Shown here in pieces: positions 18,399 through 25,597 of a stretch of 32,318 nucleotides of DNA. The number at the start of each line of letters is the position of its first letter. Position 1 is the first letter of the stretch. This DNA is from an uncultured bacterium (GTDB lineage Bacteria; DUMJ01): NCBI GenBank assembly GCA_937958695.1, contig CALGNK010000055.1, positions 1-32,318 of the forward strand. The letters are read 5' to 3'. The notes beneath the pieces are model-generated. The model was not told where the DNA came from. It worked only from the letters and a program-made list of their open reading frames with translations, and did no database searches. The position numbers and the translations under genes are program-made.

Positions 18399-18739
18399 GG
18401 GTGAGTAGGTGGATAACCACGGAGGGTTTTCCCTCTGAGGAAAGTCCGAGCTCCTCAGGGCAAGGTGCTGGGTAATACCCAGTGGCGGTGACGTCAGGAA
18501 AGTGCCACAGAAAATATACCGCCTGCTTGTGCAGGTAAGGGTGAAAAGGTGAGGTAAGAGCTCACCAGCAAGAGGGCGACCTCTTGGCTTGGCAAACCCC
18601 ACCTGGAGCAAGGCCTAATAGGGGGAGATGGGTGCCCTGCCCGTTATTATCCCCGGGTTGGCCGCTGGAGGCAACTGGTAACAGTTGCCCTAGATATATG
18701 GTTATCTAAAACAGAACTCGGCTTACGGCCTACTCACCC
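18399..18739 (+). ncRNA. rnpB: RNase P RNA (class A)
   Basis: The catalytic RNA of RNase P, which trims the 5' leader from pre-tRNAs. The ends GGGTGAGTAG (18399-18408) and CTACTCACCC (18730-18739) form a 10-bp P1. The conserved 5' core GAGGAAAGTCCGAGCTC and its 3' partner CAGAACTCGGCTTACGGCC (P4 and CR I/CR V) are clear, with ACAGAAA, GGTAAGGGTGAAA and a GAGGTAAGAG loop that supplies the GGTAA for binding the tRNA CCA end. Length (341 nt) and layout fit ancestral class A, not the Bacillus class B. It precedes a tRNA gene, which has its own promoter. Confidence 0.95.
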
Positions 18740-18760
18740 TTGAGTGTGTTATACGGGGTA

Positions 18761-18800: not shown

Positions 18801-18876
18801 TCCTCGGTAGCTCAACAGGCAGAGCGGCCGGCTGTTAACCGGTTGGTTGTAGGTTCGAGTCCTACCCGGGGAGCCA
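18801..18876 (+). tRNA. tRNA-Asn (anticodon GTT)
   Basis: A 76-nt cloverleaf: acceptor TCCTCGG with CCGGGGA, D-arm GCTC..GAGC, anticodon stem GCCGG/CCGGT with loop CTGTTAA, T-arm GTAGG TTCGAGT CCTAC, discriminator G and an encoded CCA at 18874-18876. The anticodon GTT is at 18834-18836. The encoded CCA means no CCA-adding step is required for this tRNA. It directly precedes the restriction-modification island. Confidence 0.97.
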
Positions 18877-19162: not shown

Positions 19163-22100
19163 ATGGATAGTATTCAAAAGTTTCAAGATTTACTTAAAAA
19201 GCTTTTTCAATTTGAAACATCAGATTTGGATTTTGGAATTTATAAAATCCTGAATTACAAAAGGGATAGAATTGAGAAATTTATTCAGGAAGACCTTAAA
19301 AATAAGGTTGAAACTGCCTTTGCAAAACATAAAGATGAGAGATTAACCAATATAAATAATAGATTTGAAGAGGCAAGACAGAAGGTTATTCAGACATTGG
19401 GTTCACAGGCTTTTACACCTACAGGAGACATTAAAGATGAATTCAAGGAGACTCCTGTAGGTAAGGATTTTCTATCAATAAAAGCACAAAAGAAAGAGGC
19501 GGAAGCAATTTACGAAATCAAGTCTCAAGTTTTCAATGATTTGTATAACTTCTTTTCCAGATATTATGAAGAAGGTGATTTTGTCCCTCAATACCGCTAC
19601 TCTATAAAAGAACACAAATACGCCATTCCTTACAACGGAGAAGAGATAAAACTTTACTGGGCAAATACTGATCAGTACTACACAAAAACGGGTGTCCTTT
19701 TCCGTGATTATACCTTCCTTATAAATTCCCCTCTTATAGAGGGGCAAGGGGTGTTCAAAGTTATCTTCCGGATCGTTTCTGCCAAAGAAGAACTTGCTTC
19801 AAACAAAGCAACTAAAGAAAGGTTTTTTGTTCTTGATGATGAAATGCCAATAGAGATTAAGGGGAAACATCCCTGCACCCCTCTACAAGAGAGGAAGGTT
19901 TTAATCATACGCTTTCAGTATAGAGAACTTACCGAGGAAGAAGTAAAGCACTATGATGTAGAAGGAGGAAGTAACACTGCAAAGCAAGAGAAGATTAACC
20001 AGAAAAGTTATGAAGAAATACTGAAAAATATCAAGGATATAACATTAAAGGGAATTTTGAGCAAAGAATATAAAAATGAAAAACCTCTACTTCTTTATCA
20101 ATTAGATAGATTTACGGCTAAAAATACAAAAGATTATTTCATCCACAAAAACCTTAAGAAATTCCTCTCCGAGCAACTAGATTATTTCATTAAATCAGAG
20201 GTATTAGATATTGAAACGCTGGAAAAGGAAAGATTTTTAGACAAACACATAACAAGAGCCAAAGTAGTGCGAGAGATTGGGGAGGATATTATTGATTTCC
20301 TTTCCCAGATTGAAGATTTTCAGAAAAGGCTTTGGGAGAAAAAGAAGTTTGTATTAAGGACAGAATATGTGATAACCCTTGATAGACTTGAAAAGCAGGG
20401 GGAAGGAATTGATGTAATTAGAAAAATTATAGAGCATGAGGGTATGGCTAAACAAATTCAGGAGTGGAAAGACCTGGGACTTGTTGACAAAGAATTTAAA
20501 GTAGAAGACCTCTTCCAATCCCCCTCTATAAGAGGGGAATATAGGTATTTGCCCATTGATACGATATACTTTGACGAAGAAATAAAGTATAGAATACTTG
20601 AATTGTTTACCGACTTAGATGACCTTTTGGATGGGCTTTTGATTAAGAGTGAAAACTGGCAGGCTTTGAACCTTCTTTTAAATAAATACAAGGAAAAAGT
20701 ACAGACAATTTATATAGACCCACCATTTAACAAAGAGCAGGATGCTGACTATCTTTACAATGTAAAGTATAAAGATTCCACTTGGGCAACTATGCTTGAG
20801 AATAGATTAAGGCTTGCAAGAGATTTATTGAACGATAGGGGAAGTATTTTTGTAAGATGTGATTACAATGGCAATTGGATTGTCAGACTTTTGATGGATG
20901 AGATTTTTGGAAAGGAAAATTTTAGGAATGAGATAATAGTGAAGAGAGGGTATGTTCCCAAAGGATTAACTAATCAATATATCACAGGAACTGACTCATT
21001 AATGCTCTATGGGAAAAACAAAGAAAAAATGTTTTTTATTGGAGCTAAGAAAAAAATAAAAGAAGAAGAGAGACAATGGATTTCTTTGGATATGCCAGGA
21101 CAAAGAAAAACTTATGAATTACAAGTTAGATACTTTTTTGGGAAGCCTTGGTTACCTCCTAAAGGGCAGCATTGGGGGTTGTCGCAAGAGAAAATCAATG
21201 AATATGAAAAGAAAGGTTGGATAAGGATAAACCCAAATAGAACTTATATTGACACTCAAGGGAAATTAGTAAAAGGGATGCCAGAATATCTAAAAGAGCC
21301 AGAATTATTATTAGATACAAACTGGACAGATATTAAAAGTTATGAAACTCACAATACTTTCTTCCCAACAGAAAATTCAGAGATATTATTGAAAAGAGTA
21401 ATAGAAGGAGTTTCCAATGAAGGCGATTTAGTTATGGATTTCTTCCTTGGATCTGGCACAACGACAGCGGTAGCACACAAGCTTAAAAGAAAATGGATTG
21501 GAGTGGAGATGGGAGAACATTTCTGGACAGTTGTTTTGCCAAGAATGAAAAAAGTTTTGGCTTATGATAAATCAGGAATTTCAAAAGAAAAGGATGTTAA
21601 AGAAAAGTATAATGAAAACAGTGCTGGCGGATTCTTCAAATATCAAATCCTTGAACAATACGAAGACACTCTTGATAATATAGAACTAAAAGGAAACCAG
21701 AGAGCCCTTGAACTTTTCCAAGATGAATACCTGCTTAAATACTTTCTTGATTTTGAAACAAGGGAAAGCCCATACCTTTTAAACCTTGAAATGCTCAAAA
21801 ACCCCTTTGCCTATAAACTTAAAGTCAATCTCTCAGAGGTTGGAGAACCACAGGAAATGGTTATAGATATACCGGAGACATTTAATTATCTTCTGGGAAT
21901 AAAAGTTAAAAAAGTGAAGGTGAGGAATAATAGAGCAAAGTATCTTTTTATCCTTGGCGAAAAAGAAGGACGAGATGTCGCGATAGTGTGGCGAGAGTAT
22001 AACGATAATTGGTCAGATGAAGATTTTAAAGAGGATAAGGAATTCATCACAAAAGAACTTGAACCATGGGGTCCTCATATTGTTTATATAAATGGCCAGA

Positions 22101-22171
22101 GTGTTTTAACCCCCAGAAACTGGGAAGTAAGATACATTGAACCAGAGTTTAAAAGGTTGATGGTGGAATAA
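19163..22171 (+). CDS. mod: Type III-like adenine-specific DNA methyltransferase (Mod)
   Basis: A 1002-residue protein. The catalytic motif IV IYIDPPFNK has D519-P-P-F522 and the AdoMet-binding motif I DFFLGSGTTTAV is at 759-770. This order, motif IV before motif I, is the beta class that methylates adenine N6 in type III Mod proteins. The stretch between them is long enough to hold the target-recognition domain. About 515 residues precede motif IV, so the protein is far longer than the usual 600-700 residue Mod; that part starts FQDLLKKLFQFETSDLDFGI and I cannot assign a fold to it. Three copies of a palindromic repeat encode residues 188-194, 239-245 and 453-460. Ile codons in the first 115 codons are 7 ATT, 2 ATC and 2 ATA, unlike the ribosomal genes. 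One base separates it from the next gene. Confidence 0.88.
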   Translation: MDSIQKFQDLLKKLFQFETSDLDFGIYKILNYKRDRIEKFIQEDLKNKVETAFAKHKDERLTNINNRFEEARQKVIQTLGSQAFTPTGDIKDEFKETPVGKDFLSIKAQKKEAEAIYEIKSQVFNDLYNFFSRYYEEGDFVPQYRYSIKEHKYAIPYNGEEIKLYWANTDQYYTKTGVLFRDYTFLINSPLIEGQGVFKVIFRIVSAKEELASNKATKERFFVLDDEMPIEIKGKHPCTPLQERKVLIIRFQYRELTEEEVKHYDVEGGSNTAKQEKINQKSYEEILKNIKDITLKGILSKEYKNEKPLLLYQLDRFTAKNTKDYFIHKNLKKFLSEQLDYFIKSEVLDIETLEKERFLDKHITRAKVVREIGEDIIDFLSQIEDFQKRLWEKKKFVLRTEYVITLDRLEKQGEGIDVIRKIIEHEGMAKQIQEWKDLGLVDKEFKVEDLFQSPSIRGEYRYLPIDTIYFDEEIKYRILELFTDLDDLLDGLLIKSENWQALNLLLNKYKEKVQTIYIDPPFNKEQDADYLYNVKYKDSTWATMLENRLRLARDLLNDRGSIFVRCDYNGNWIVRLLMDEIFGKENFRNEIIVKRGYVPKGLTNQYITGTDSLMLYGKNKEKMFFIGAKKKIKEEERQWISLDMPGQRKTYELQVRYFFGKPWLPPKGQHWGLSQEKINEYEKKGWIRINPNRTYIDTQGKLVKGMPEYLKEPELLLDTNWTDIKSYETHNTFFPTENSEILLKRVIEGVSNEGDLVMDFFLGSGTTTAVAHKLKRKWIGVEMGEHFWTVVLPRMKKVLAYDKSGISKEKDVKEKYNENSAGGFFKYQILEQYEDTLDNIELKGNQRALELFQDEYLLKYFLDFETRESPYLLNLEMLKNPFAYKLKVNLSEVGEPQEMVIDIPETFNYLLGIKVKKVKVRNNRAKYLFILGEKEGRDVAIVWREYNDNWSDEDFKEDKEFITKELEPWGPHIVYINGQSVLTPRNWEVRYIEPEFKRLMVE
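19725..19744 (+). repeat. Palindromic coding repeat, copy 1
   Basis: ATTCCCCTCTTATAGAGGGG: a perfect 7-bp inverted repeat CCCCTCT/AGAGGGG around TAT. It is read in frame as N188-S-P-L-I-E-G194 of the methyltransferase. Copy 2 is its exact reverse complement over all 20 bases. Confidence 0.85.
19878..19896 (+). repeat. Palindromic coding repeat, copy 3 (diverged)
   Basis: CCCCTCTACAAGAGAGGAA matches copy 2 at 17 of 19 bases, in the same orientation. It is read in a third phase as T239-P-L-Q-E-R244. In that phase the unmutated repeat would read CCT CTA TAA, a stop; here base 19886 is C, giving CAA (Q242). Confidence 0.6.
20521..20540 (+). repeat. Palindromic coding repeat, copy 2
   Basis: CCCCTCTATAAGAGGGGAAT is the exact reverse complement of the 20 bases of copy 1. 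Read in frame it gives S453-P-S-I-R-G-E-Y460. The same DNA unit is thus translated on opposite strands at two sites of one gene, without a stop. Confidence 0.85.
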
Positions 22172-22172
22172 G

Positions 22173-22574
22173 ATGGCAGAGCCAATAAGACAAAAAGTTT
22201 TTAAATCTATAAAAGAATATCTAAAGAATAAACCAGATGGAGCCCGTTATTCAGAAATAATTGAATTTTTAAAAGAAAATTTTCCTGATGTCCCAGAAAA
22301 TACTCTTCATGGTTCTGTTTGGGATTTCAGACAAAGAATAATTAATGGGAAAGAAAAAGCAGACCCAATTAGACCTCCCGAAAGTGATATACCAAGGCTT
22401 GAATCTCTTTGTATGAGATTTGGAATAGGTTTAATCCTATTTGACAAAGACGATTTGAATAACCCTAAATTTCAGATAAGAACAAGAGCAATGAAAAGTG
22501 AGCCAGATTATTTTTATGTAAATCTTTATATTCAAAAACTTTCAAAAGATGATATTAAGAAATTAATGGGTTAA
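22173..22574 (+). CDS. Small winged-helix-like protein of the R-M operon
   Basis: A 133-residue protein between mod and res, one and two bases from them. The N-terminal 60 residues (KVFKSIKEYLKNKPDGARYS, EIIEFLKENF, PENTLHGSVWDFRQRI) read as a helix-turn-helix of winged or HARE-HTH type, a domain known to be linked to bacterial restriction systems. The C-terminal half, LESLCMRFGIGLILFDKDDL then NPKFQIRTRAMKSEPDYFYV, resembles the tail of small uncharacterised proteins found next to DNA-modification genes. I see no nuclease motif. It may be a regulator of the operon or a DNA-binding adaptor for the methylase-helicase complex. The fold assignment is by eye. Confidence 0.7.
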   Translation: MAEPIRQKVFKSIKEYLKNKPDGARYSEIIEFLKENFPDVPENTLHGSVWDFRQRIINGKEKADPIRPPESDIPRLESLCMRFGIGLILFDKDDLNNPKFQIRTRAMKSEPDYFYVNLYIQKLSKDDIKKLMG

Positions 22575-22576
22575 AC

Positions 22577-25500
22577 ATGACTATAGAAAAATATCTTGTT
22601 TTAAACAAATACCTCCTTTCGCTTTTTGGAGCAAGTGATATTAAAGACCTGCTTGATGAATTGAAAAATAAGAGCGAGGGTGTAGACATCGATGGAAGGA
22701 GTTATTTTGTTAATGCTCTGCGAGGAATTGAAAATCTTAAAATATCAGAGGATACTCTTTTGAGGTATGATGAAAACATCCAATCATATGTTAAAAAAAT
22801 AAACTTCAGGCGTGAGCCAGTCTTACTGAAATACTTTCAATATCTCGCTGTGCTTTTTACCGAGATTGTCTTGGATAATATCAAAAATAGAAAGTTTGAG
22901 TTTTTGTATGAACTCAATGAGTTTCTTAAAAGATATAGGGAAGAACAAGATGTAAAAATAGATCCATTTACAGAAAATGATTTAAAAAAGCTTGCCTTCT
23001 GGATGGCAACTGGTTCAGGAAAAACCTTAATAATGCATATTAACTATCATCAATTTCTCAATTACAATTTATTCTCTCCTGACAATATCATTCTTATTAC
23101 TCCCAATGAAGGACTTTCAAAACAGCACTTTGAAGAGCTGGAAAAAAGTGGTATCCCTTGCAGACTTTATGTTGGAACCCTCAATAGTGGTTTAAGGAAC
23201 GAAAATGAGGTTTTAGTTATAGAGATGACAAAACTTGTGGAAGAGAAAAAGGGCGGAGGAGTAACACTTCCTATTGAAACATTTGAAGGAAGAAATCTTA
23301 TTTTCGTAGATGAAGGACATAAAGGTAGAAAATCGGAGGAGCAAAAATGGGCGAAACTGAGGGATAAACTTGCCGAACAGGGATTTGTTTTTGAATATAG
23401 TGCAACTTTTGGTCAGATTTTAACCGAAAGACAATATGATATACTCAAAGAGTATGCCAAATCAATAGTTTTTGATTATTCTTATAAATACTTTTATCTT
23501 GATGGTTACGGCAAAGATTTTACTGTTTTGAATGTAAAACAAGTAAAAATTTCTGAGCAGGAATTCCAAGAAGTAATGTTTGTAGCTAACCTTCTTTCTT
23601 TTTATGAACAACTTCTAGTTTATGAAAAAGGCAAAGAATTAGCAAAGGAAAATAATATTGAAAAACCACTCTGGATTTTCGTTGGTACAACAGTTACCGG
23701 GAGAGAAGAGGAGTCTGATATTATTAAGATTTTAGAGTTCATAAGAAAGGTAATCTATAACGAAGATTGGATGAAAGAGTGGGCGAAAAAGATTTTAAAC
23801 GGTGATACAAATTTAAAAGACGAAGATGAAAGAGATCTCTTTGAGGAAAGGTTTAAATATCTCAGAGCGAATGCCATTGACTTTGAAGATCTGTATAGAC
23901 GAGTCTTTAGAGGAAAAGGAAACCTTGCACTATATGAGCTAAAGAATGTTGAAGGAGAAATAGGATTAAAAATTGGGGAGAATGAATATTTTGGAGTTAT
24001 AAATATTGGTGATGTTTCTGGTTTCAAAAAACTACTTGAGGGGAAAGATTTCACGGTAGGCCAAGATGTGATTTCAAGCTCTCTTTTTGACGATATTAAA
24101 AAAGAAGACTCTAAAATAAATATCCTTATCGGTTCAAAGAAATTTATAGAAGGCTGGGATACTTGGCGTGTTTCTTCAATGGGACTTTTGAATATAGGTA
24201 AAGGACAAGGTCCACAGATCATCCAGCTATTCGGAAGAGGAGTTAGACTTAAAGGTAAGAGAATGTCTTTAAAAAGAAGTGGTGAGAATTCTCAGATTAA
24301 GATTTTAGAGACGCTTAATGTTTATGGGATTAAAGCTGATTACCTTAATAAATTCTTAGAGGCAATAAAGCAAGAGGAAGTGGAATTTGAGAGTATTGAG
24401 ATACCTATAATACCTCAACATAAAGATAAATGGACCACTCTTTATATTTTTTCTAAACTAGAAAAGAAGTTTGAGGAAGAAGAAATTTTAAGGTTAGAGA
24501 TTGACGATAGGATTCATTATACAGTTGACCTCCTGCCAAAGGTCTCAATATATCTGGCAAAGGAGAGAAGGGAGGAGGGGATGAAGTCTGAAGAGATAAA
24601 ACCTAAAGTTGAAGGACTTAGGTTTCCAGAAGATAAGATTGATTTGCTAAATTGGGAAAGAATTTGCCAAGAAATACTTGAATTTAAAGCATTGAGAAAT
24701 TATTGGAATTTGGTTTTTGAGAAGGATACTCTTAAAAACCTTCTTTTGTCTGATAGATATGATCTTTTATCACTTCCTGAAATTCTTGAAGTCAAAAGTG
24801 AGGAAGACTTAAAACGGCTGGAAGATATTGCTCTCTTAGTTATCAAAAAATATATAGACCTCTTTTATAGTAAAAATGCAAAGCGTTTTGAGACAGAAAA
24901 CTTAAGCTATACTAAGCTTAAAGAAACATTACATTCTATTTCTGAAAAAGAACAACGTTACATAGTGCAGATAGATAAGAAAAAGAAAGAATTAATCAAA
25001 AAGATAAGAAACTTGGCAAAAGATTTAGAGAAACTACTTAAAGAAGATACTGAAGTTTTGCCAAGAATTTATTTTGACGGTTCTCTGTACGTACCTATAT
25101 TACTGCAAAGTAAGAAGATAGATAAGATCTCTCCTGCAGGTCTTGTAGAAAGTGAACAAGAATTTGTAAGAGAATTAAGGGAGCATCTGAAAGAATATAA
25201 AGACAAATATCCCTTTGAAATATATCTTTTAAGGAATTATCCTTTTTCTGGAATAGGTTTTCAGCTTCAGTGGTCAAAATTCTATCCGGACTTTATTATG
25301 TGGATAAGGAAAGATGAGAAGCAAGTTATTGTCTTTATAGATCCAAAGGGATTAGAACATACTAAGGGCTTAGATGATGAAAAGATACAATTTAAGGATG
25401 AGATTAAAGAGATCGAACAAAAACTAGCAAATAACAGTATAGTTTTAGAATCTTTTATTCTCTCAAAAACCCCATACGAAAAGTTAAAAGAAGGTCTAAC

Positions 25501-25597
25501 TAATCCTCCCAAGAAAGATGAATATATAAAGAATCATGTGCTATTCCTAGATGACAGCGATTGGCCAGAAAAATTTTTTCAATTCTTCATTAACTGA
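22577..25597 (+). CDS. res: Type III-like restriction helicase-nuclease (Res)
   Basis: A 1006-residue SF2 translocase with a C-terminal nuclease. Visible in order: Walker A ATGSGKT with GSGKT at 146-150, DEGH box at 245-248, SAT at 275-277, motif V GWDTWR at 526-531 and motif VI QLFGRGVRLKG at 550-560. A PD-(D/E)xK-type site follows near the end: P904-D905 in YPDFIMWIRK and D922-P-K924 in VFIDPKGLEH. This is the layout of type III Res subunits and the length is usual. It lies two bases after the small HTH gene, so all three genes form one transcription unit. Residues 560-880 (target binding or coupling region) have no motif I can name. All catalytic residues appear intact, so the enzyme is probably active. 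Confidence 0.88.
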   Translation: MTIEKYLVLNKYLLSLFGASDIKDLLDELKNKSEGVDIDGRSYFVNALRGIENLKISEDTLLRYDENIQSYVKKINFRREPVLLKYFQYLAVLFTEIVLDNIKNRKFEFLYELNEFLKRYREEQDVKIDPFTENDLKKLAFWMATGSGKTLIMHINYHQFLNYNLFSPDNIILITPNEGLSKQHFEELEKSGIPCRLYVGTLNSGLRNENEVLVIEMTKLVEEKKGGGVTLPIETFEGRNLIFVDEGHKGRKSEEQKWAKLRDKLAEQGFVFEYSATFGQILTERQYDILKEYAKSIVFDYSYKYFYLDGYGKDFTVLNVKQVKISEQEFQEVMFVANLLSFYEQLLVYEKGKELAKENNIEKPLWIFVGTTVTGREEESDIIKILEFIRKVIYNEDWMKEWAKKILNGDTNLKDEDERDLFEERFKYLRANAIDFEDLYRRVFRGKGNLALYELKNVEGEIGLKIGENEYFGVINIGDVSGFKKLLEGKDFTVGQDVISSSLFDDIKKEDSKINILIGSKKFIEGWDTWRVSSMGLLNIGKGQGPQIIQLFGRGVRLKGKRMSLKRSGENSQIKILETLNVYGIKADYLNKFLEAIKQEEVEFESIEIPIIPQHKDKWTTLYIFSKLEKKFEEEEILRLEIDDRIHYTVDLLPKVSIYLAKERREEGMKSEEIKPKVEGLRFPEDKIDLLNWERICQEILEFKALRNYWNLVFEKDTLKNLLLSDRYDLLSLPEILEVKSEEDLKRLEDIALLVIKKYIDLFYSKNAKRFETENLSYTKLKETLHSISEKEQRYIVQIDKKKKELIKKIRNLAKDLEKLLKEDTEVLPRIYFDGSLYVPILLQSKKIDKISPAGLVESEQEFVRELREHLKEYKDKYPFEIYLLRNYPFSGIGFQLQWSKFYPDFIMWIRKDEKQVIVFIDPKGLEHTKGLDDEKIQFKDEIKEIEQKLANNSIVLESFILSKTPYEKLKEGLTNPPKKDEYIKNHVLFLDDSDWPEKFFQFFIN

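Follow-up and report, generated by a model that had tools for sequence, protein, structure and literature searches.

Palindromic inserts of a mod gene as candidate ends of a DUF559-encoding mobile element

A stretch of 32,318 bases from an uncultured bacterium (contig CALGNK010000055.1), hereafter the window, carries mod, a gene for a type III-like DNA methyltransferase, in which three copies of a short palindromic repeat are read through in frame. How do palindromes come to lie inside a protein-coding gene, and what could have moved them? In other genomes, such palindromes are found as inverted pairs around genes for DUF559 proteins. The window repeats are probably solo end-palindromes of a DUF559-encoding mobile element, which arrived with a horizontally transferred mod.

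Three palindromic inserts in mod

The first copy, at 19725-19744, is ATTCCCCTCTTATAGAGGGG. Its exact reverse complement lies at 20521-20540 (copy 3), and a diverged copy, CCCCTCTACAAGAGAGGAA, at 19878-19896 (copy 2). Copies 1 to 3 are translated as NSPLIEG (residues 188-194), TPLQER (239-244) and SPSIRGE (453-459), each with a different combination of phase and orientation. An earlier note on this DNA, made from the sequence alone, had described both the exact pair with its diverged third copy and the short in-frame peptides, and this description was confirmed. Copies 1 and 2 have a tail in common (GGGGCAAGGGGTGTT and GGGGTGCAGGGATGTT; pattern GGGG..AGGGGTGTT and GGGG..CAGGGATGTT), so that the element measures about 30 bp.

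19163..22171, + strand: mod, type III-like DNA methyltransferase, 1002 aa (Pfam N6_N4_Mtase, E 8e-37)
19725..19756, + strand: insert 1, palindrome with its tail, ATTCCCCTCTTATAGAGGGGCAAGGGGTGTTC, translated as NSPLIEGQGVF
19868..19897, - strand: insert 2, the diverged copy, its tail similar to that of insert 1
20521..20543, - strand: insert 3, exact hairpin in the orientation opposite to insert 1

Searching the window with the 17-mer at up to 3 mismatches gave 5 matches, against a mean of 0.15 expected, and none of 100 shuffles gave 5. Apart from copies 1 and 3, the window contains no perfect G+C-rich hairpin with a 7-bp stem. The catalytic motifs of mod are present (DPPF, 519-522; FLGSGTT, 761-767).

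The length of mod was compared with that of four homologues, from a congener and from loci L035, L026 and L028. The window gene is longer than all four by 24 nt at site 1 and by 30 nt at site 2, where the gap is clean against L028, and longer than L035, L026 and L028 by 27 nt at site 3. At this last site it equals the congener in length, which makes site 3 the weaker one. The expectation that homologues would lack the repeats was thus borne out at sites 1 and 2, and at site 3 except against the congener; conserved aligned residues were not found in the homologues at the three sites. In an AlphaFold2 model built from 30 sequences (mean predicted local distance difference test score, pLDDT, 72.9), site 1 is a turn between strands 183-187 and 198-207, site 2 a turn between strands 230-233 and 245-255, and site 3 a loop ahead of strand 464-466. 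The pLDDT falls below 50 at residues 189-195, 235-243 and 454-457. All three sites map to predicted loops, as the earlier note had anticipated. On alignment and model, the three copies are in-frame insertions of a palindromic element in predicted loops, absent from most homologues, a behaviour for which the comparison with Rickettsia palindromic elements (RPEs) made in that note was apt.

Different palindromes lie in frame at the same mod loops in other phyla. At site 1, an Atribacteria mod has IHSPSLKGWQAKPDGVV. Inserts at site 2 read SPLVGEGKGEG in NPL-UPA2, SPLAGEVKGEG in Atribacteria and LPQGEGPGVRG in Chloroflexi (L077); L085 also has a palindrome insert there, but with in-frame stops. 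At site 3 they read VIARNEVTKQS (NPL-UPA2) and VIPAKAGIQ (the deltaproteobacterium L032), and L077 has a longer insert. In the genome of its host, the L032 element is present 104 times, against 0 for the reversed control, and the mod insert clearly belongs to this host's own repeat family. Outside the three sites, SACCSEQSEESL is found near residue 410 (L043), and several palindrome inserts near residue 483 (L025, L027, L052, L067). The carriers are scattered over the mod tree, on which 7 changes are needed for 8 rows, at least 4 of them forced by well-supported branches. When the window hairpin was searched in the genomes of relatives, the matches fell in other mod-type genes.

DUF559 genes between paired palindromes

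DUF559 still bears the Pfam name "domain of unknown function". It has a relative of solved structure, 3hrl, and a relationship with Vsr-like PD-(D/E)XK nucleases is described (PMC12907096). Genomes with DUF559 numbered 46 of 148 in the phylum of G035, and 115 of 297 in that of G003.

Inverted repeats across the two flanks of DUF559 genes were scored against placements 700-1000 bp away, with the 97.5th percentile of these controls as threshold. Among DUF559 loci, a non-random sample made of the best-scoring ones plus five chosen regions, 35 of 44 exceeded the threshold, as did 20 of 35 in a second set. Of 79 DUF559 loci, 47 had a G+C-rich hairpin with a 7-bp stem in both flanks and 67 had one in at least one flank; for 287 control placements, the corresponding numbers were 1 and 35. 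The sequence of the repeat varies from genome to genome, and its pairing around DUF559 is kept. At L162, L157 and L161, the inverted pair is of the window hairpin type; in L162, from Nitrospirae, a TTCCCCTCTAAAAAGAGGGGTGTAGGGGTGTGT pair flanks a free-standing DUF559 gene.

Complete elements were also found in frame inside genes. The mod frames of L121 and L123 each include a DUF559 domain (E 4e-31 and 4e-28) between inverted palindrome copies, and at L123/L157 the whole DUF559 element occupies window site 3, with NTPNPSIRGEFKYLPIDT there versus FQSPSIRGEYRYLPIDT in the window. Other in-frame cases were recognised in Pfam as DUF559 between or beside other domains of the same protein. They comprise HsdS (L182, L184, L187), HsdM (L191, L215), HsdR (L201, L216), a type ISP enzyme (L194), N6_N4 and MmeI-type methylases (L195, L197), leucyl-tRNA synthetase (LeuRS; L196, L199), MetH (L204) and the end of PurL (L210). 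Restriction-modification (R-M) proteins make up 12 of the 16 in-frame DUF559 proteins, the two mods counted; an 855-aa frame around DUF559 in L186, which reads as a spurious G+C-rich frame, was left out of this count. Further HsdR and HsdM cases were noted by reading (L203, L207, L224, L225). Pfam scans of the element-bearing proteins revealed no intein family, that is, no splicing (Hint) domain.

LeuRS is normally essential. Residues 293 and 449 of the L199 enzyme align to residues 236 and 243 of that of T. thermophilus, so that about 155 residues stand in place of a six-residue loop. The L196 enzyme likewise has some 155 additional residues, DUF559 among them, at this short loop. A full-text literature search, with subscription papers mostly outside its scope, returned nothing on insertions of this kind in LeuRS.

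A second nuclease family is found between paired palindromes. In genomes of the same kinds, inverted palindromes of the GTCATTCC / GTCATTGCGAG type lie on both sides of small GIY-YIG genes: 6 of the 12 such genes with complete flanks have a flank inverted repeat of at least 28 bits, whereas GIY-YIG domains in long frames, mostly UvrC-sized, score at most 21.9 and are not so flanked. The GIY-YIG loci in this flank comparison were L248, L250, L252, L253, L257, L258, L259, L260 and L262. Repeats of the same type are also in frame in the mods of L027, L032 and L067, and the HsdR of L216 (175-3315) has GIY-YIG (E 1.3e-14) and DUF559 (E 4e-34) in one frame. Set against their description, rather than against a published consensus, these repeats look like RPE-4/6 and like the CGTC class of repetitive extragenic palindromes (REPs), for which no transposase is known (PMC3733652). 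We tentatively suggest, as a generalisation that could equally fail, that small nucleases rather than transposases mobilise large classes of bacterial palindromes (CCCCTC..GAGGGG for DUF559, GTCATTCC/GTCATTGCGAG for small GIY-YIG nucleases), and that DUF559 elements, joined in one HsdR by a GIY-YIG domain, enter working and even essential genes as non-splicing in-frame passengers, in this sample mainly R-M genes.

The source genome and a probable transfer of mod

The earlier note had raised the possibility that the unit recurs across the genome, as a mobile repeat family of this lineage. In the 2,093,564-bp source genome (G000), the exact 17-mer is present at two mod sites and nowhere outside mod. 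Up to 2 mismatches, 5 places were found, 3 in mod and 2 elsewhere; with 3 mismatches there were 20 matches, near the reversed-pattern control (11). The hairpin-plus-tail consensus had no genome match at up to 3 mismatches, and the diverged copies of the window fall outside this consensus too. A resident genome-wide family is ruled out by these searches, and that possibility has to be abandoned: the whole-genome search proposed with it, at 2-3 mismatches, amounts to no further genomic copies in 2.09 Mb. The source genome has neither a DUF559 gene detected at E 1e-8 nor any Y1 transposase (Y1_Tnp) gene found. With no DUF559 there, the window copies are at most solo and non-autonomous.

The neighbours of mod are as follows.

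18401..18741, + strand: RNase P RNA, just upstream of the R-M genes (Rfam RF00010, 308.8 bits)
18801..18873, + strand: tRNA gene (Rfam RF00005 and sequence), GTT anticodon by reading
22173..22574, + strand: protein of 133 aa encoded between mod and res in the R-M operon, no Pfam match
22577..25597, + strand: res, restriction/helicase subunit, 1006 aa (Pfam ResIII, E 1.8e-13)

The source phylum was represented by three genomes in the comparison set. One congener has a mod fragment, 74% identical, at a contig end. N-terminal regions of mod that are about 70% identical were found in Kryptonium, Stahlbacteria, Calescibacterium, NPL-UPA2, Aminicenantes, Atribacteria and others. The closest row to the window mod is L035, from Calescibacterium (80% over 487 columns), the congener being further, and no well-supported small group of the tree includes the window mod. 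The RNase P RNA and tRNA neighbours were not seen beside the mod of the congener, within the 4 kb examined. Genes for tRNAs are common integration sites, and this context points to an R-M island next to such a gene. The closeness to Calescibacterium over the congener, the relatives at about 70% across phyla and the differing neighbourhood make it likely that mod was horizontally transferred. Plasmid and phage tblastn searches gave no close full-length relative of mod. Because there are no resident copies, and no DUF559 or Y1 enzyme, the window copies most likely came with the transferred gene. Transferred R-M genes would in this way carry such repeats into genomes without the machinery for them.

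A candidate nuclease element and its alternatives

In its complete form, the proposed element would consist of a palindrome, a gene for a DUF559 nuclease and an inverted palindrome, a small hairpin-ended nuclease gene that is copied into new sites. By the most likely route, the nuclease would cut DNA and the element would be copied in during repair, the hairpin ends serving as recognition structure. Insertions in frame in loops would survive, and others would be lost. As the reading frames are open through the palindromes, a copy that enters a loop without shifting the frame leaves the enzyme unharmed and lengthens it by a short Pro/Gly-containing peptide; a complete element, which adds about 150 residues, would be tolerated likewise. 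Solo ends could derive from incomplete copying, or from loss of the middle by deletion. The loops of mod may have gathered copies while the gene moved between phyla, the source organism receiving a mod with three of them. The excess of R-M genes could come from their being often foreign and dispensable, or from a preference of the nuclease, and the data fit both. From the position of the DUF559 genes and their Vsr-like PD-(D/E)XK relationship, we infer that the nuclease moves the palindromes. The window copies are probably solo ends, as opposed to REPs with no relation to the element.

Several points weigh against this proposal. A positional association with DUF559 is no proof of nuclease-driven movement, the loci were not sampled at random, and neither a target-site duplication nor any other mark of transposition was established. 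About 40% of the DUF559 loci are without a hairpin in both flanks, including both LeuRS cases (L196, L199), where recognisable paired palindromes are no longer present. In the window itself, copy 3 has the hairpin and a few outer-side bases in common with the others and is without the conserved tail, and its site shows no gain over the congener. No donor genome for mod was found.

Comparison with known systems sets the window repeats apart. RPEs are in-frame palindromes of protein genes, tolerated in loops and sometimes of different types at one gene site (PMC3767692, PMC10969869). The likeness lies in the in-frame loop insertion and the differing types at the same site, here with gains of 24, 30 and 27 nt that leave the mod frame open. 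However, RPEs are 100-150 bp long and multi-copy in a resident Rickettsia or Wolbachia genome, whereas the present unit is about 30 bp, without other resident copies; the kin of this mod are in non-rickettsial phyla, and elsewhere a nuclease gene lies between paired copies. REPs and REPtrons are short hairpins, solo or as inverted pairs bounding an enzyme gene, and sometimes intragenic (PMC3733652). REPtrons (RAYT / TnpA-REP) resemble our case in having both solo hairpins and inverted pairs around an enzyme gene, but theirs is a Y1 HUH transposase and here it is a DUF559 PD-(D/E)XK nuclease, with no GTAG tag, and with full elements in frame inside genes. The window repeats belong to neither RPEs nor REPtrons, by the lack of a resident family, the other lineage and size, and the lack of Y1 and of GTAG.

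Free-standing homing endonucleases and inteins are alike in having a small nuclease as sole mobility protein, inserted in conserved genes; so is the Vsr-related EDxHD family. The EDxHD nucleases are recognised as one class of homing enzymes (PMC6083498). In contrast to these, there is here no splicing domain and no intron, and the palindrome-bounded passenger is predicted to be kept in the mature protein. Enterobacterial RU elements are small, inverted-repeat elements of the type of miniature inverted-repeat transposable elements, whose open frames are fused to genes (PMC2759123); they measure 103-168 bp, whereas the solo unit here is about 30 bp and its likely parent encodes a nuclease.

The serious rival to a nuclease-encoding element, though an unlikely one, is that the palindromes are independent REP-like repeats, moved otherwise, and that DUF559 genes home into existing pairs as a landing site. 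REPs are often inverted dimers (PMC3733652), insertion sequences are known to target them (PMC1525189), and in several hosts the present repeats also lie at places with no DUF559 gene nearby. Against this, the repeat sequence changes between genomes and families while the pairing with DUF559 stays, and complete in-frame elements are found where homologues have neither palindrome nor nuclease. That classical REPs were moved by a RAYT (REP-associated tyrosine transposase, a Y1 enzyme) from a donor genome, with a coincidental DUF559 link, is improbable. There is ample documentation of REP/RAYT systems and of REPs inside genes (PMC3733652), and several mod-bearing hosts do have Y1_Tnp genes, but these genes are not bounded by the repeats as DUF559 genes are, the repeats have no GTAG tag and the source genome has no Y1_Tnp; a RAYT origin was rejected as main explanation on the resident and host Y1_Tnp results. 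As for ordinary variable-loop sequence, palindromic by chance or local duplication, the length of the three loops does vary among homologues, with no net gain over the congener at site 3, but two exact 20-mers in opposite orientation, matches exceeding all 100 shuffles, the scarcity of such hairpins in 32 kb and other palindromes at the same loops, one with 104 copies in its host, effectively refute it.

The palindrome-DUF559 mobile element is apparently undescribed. Of 14 papers that name DUF559 in a full-text search, none, judged by title and abstract, links it with palindromes or repeats, subscription papers being mostly outside the search and prior mention being possible, and a literature search for the element peptides gave nothing. 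If the proposal is true, DUF559 gains a role, that of a selfish nuclease element tolerated in frame, recurrent Pro/Gly peptides inside bacterial proteins are explained, and the origin of transposase-less REPs becomes testable.

In a scan of viral contigs, the hairpin plus tail had no match, and the hairpin alone matched two contigs. A phage-like contig of IMG/VR, IMGVR_UViG_3300028920_001368 (L146), has a single frame exceeding 2200 aa, in which a palindrome of the TPLQEGN type recurs several times in frame.
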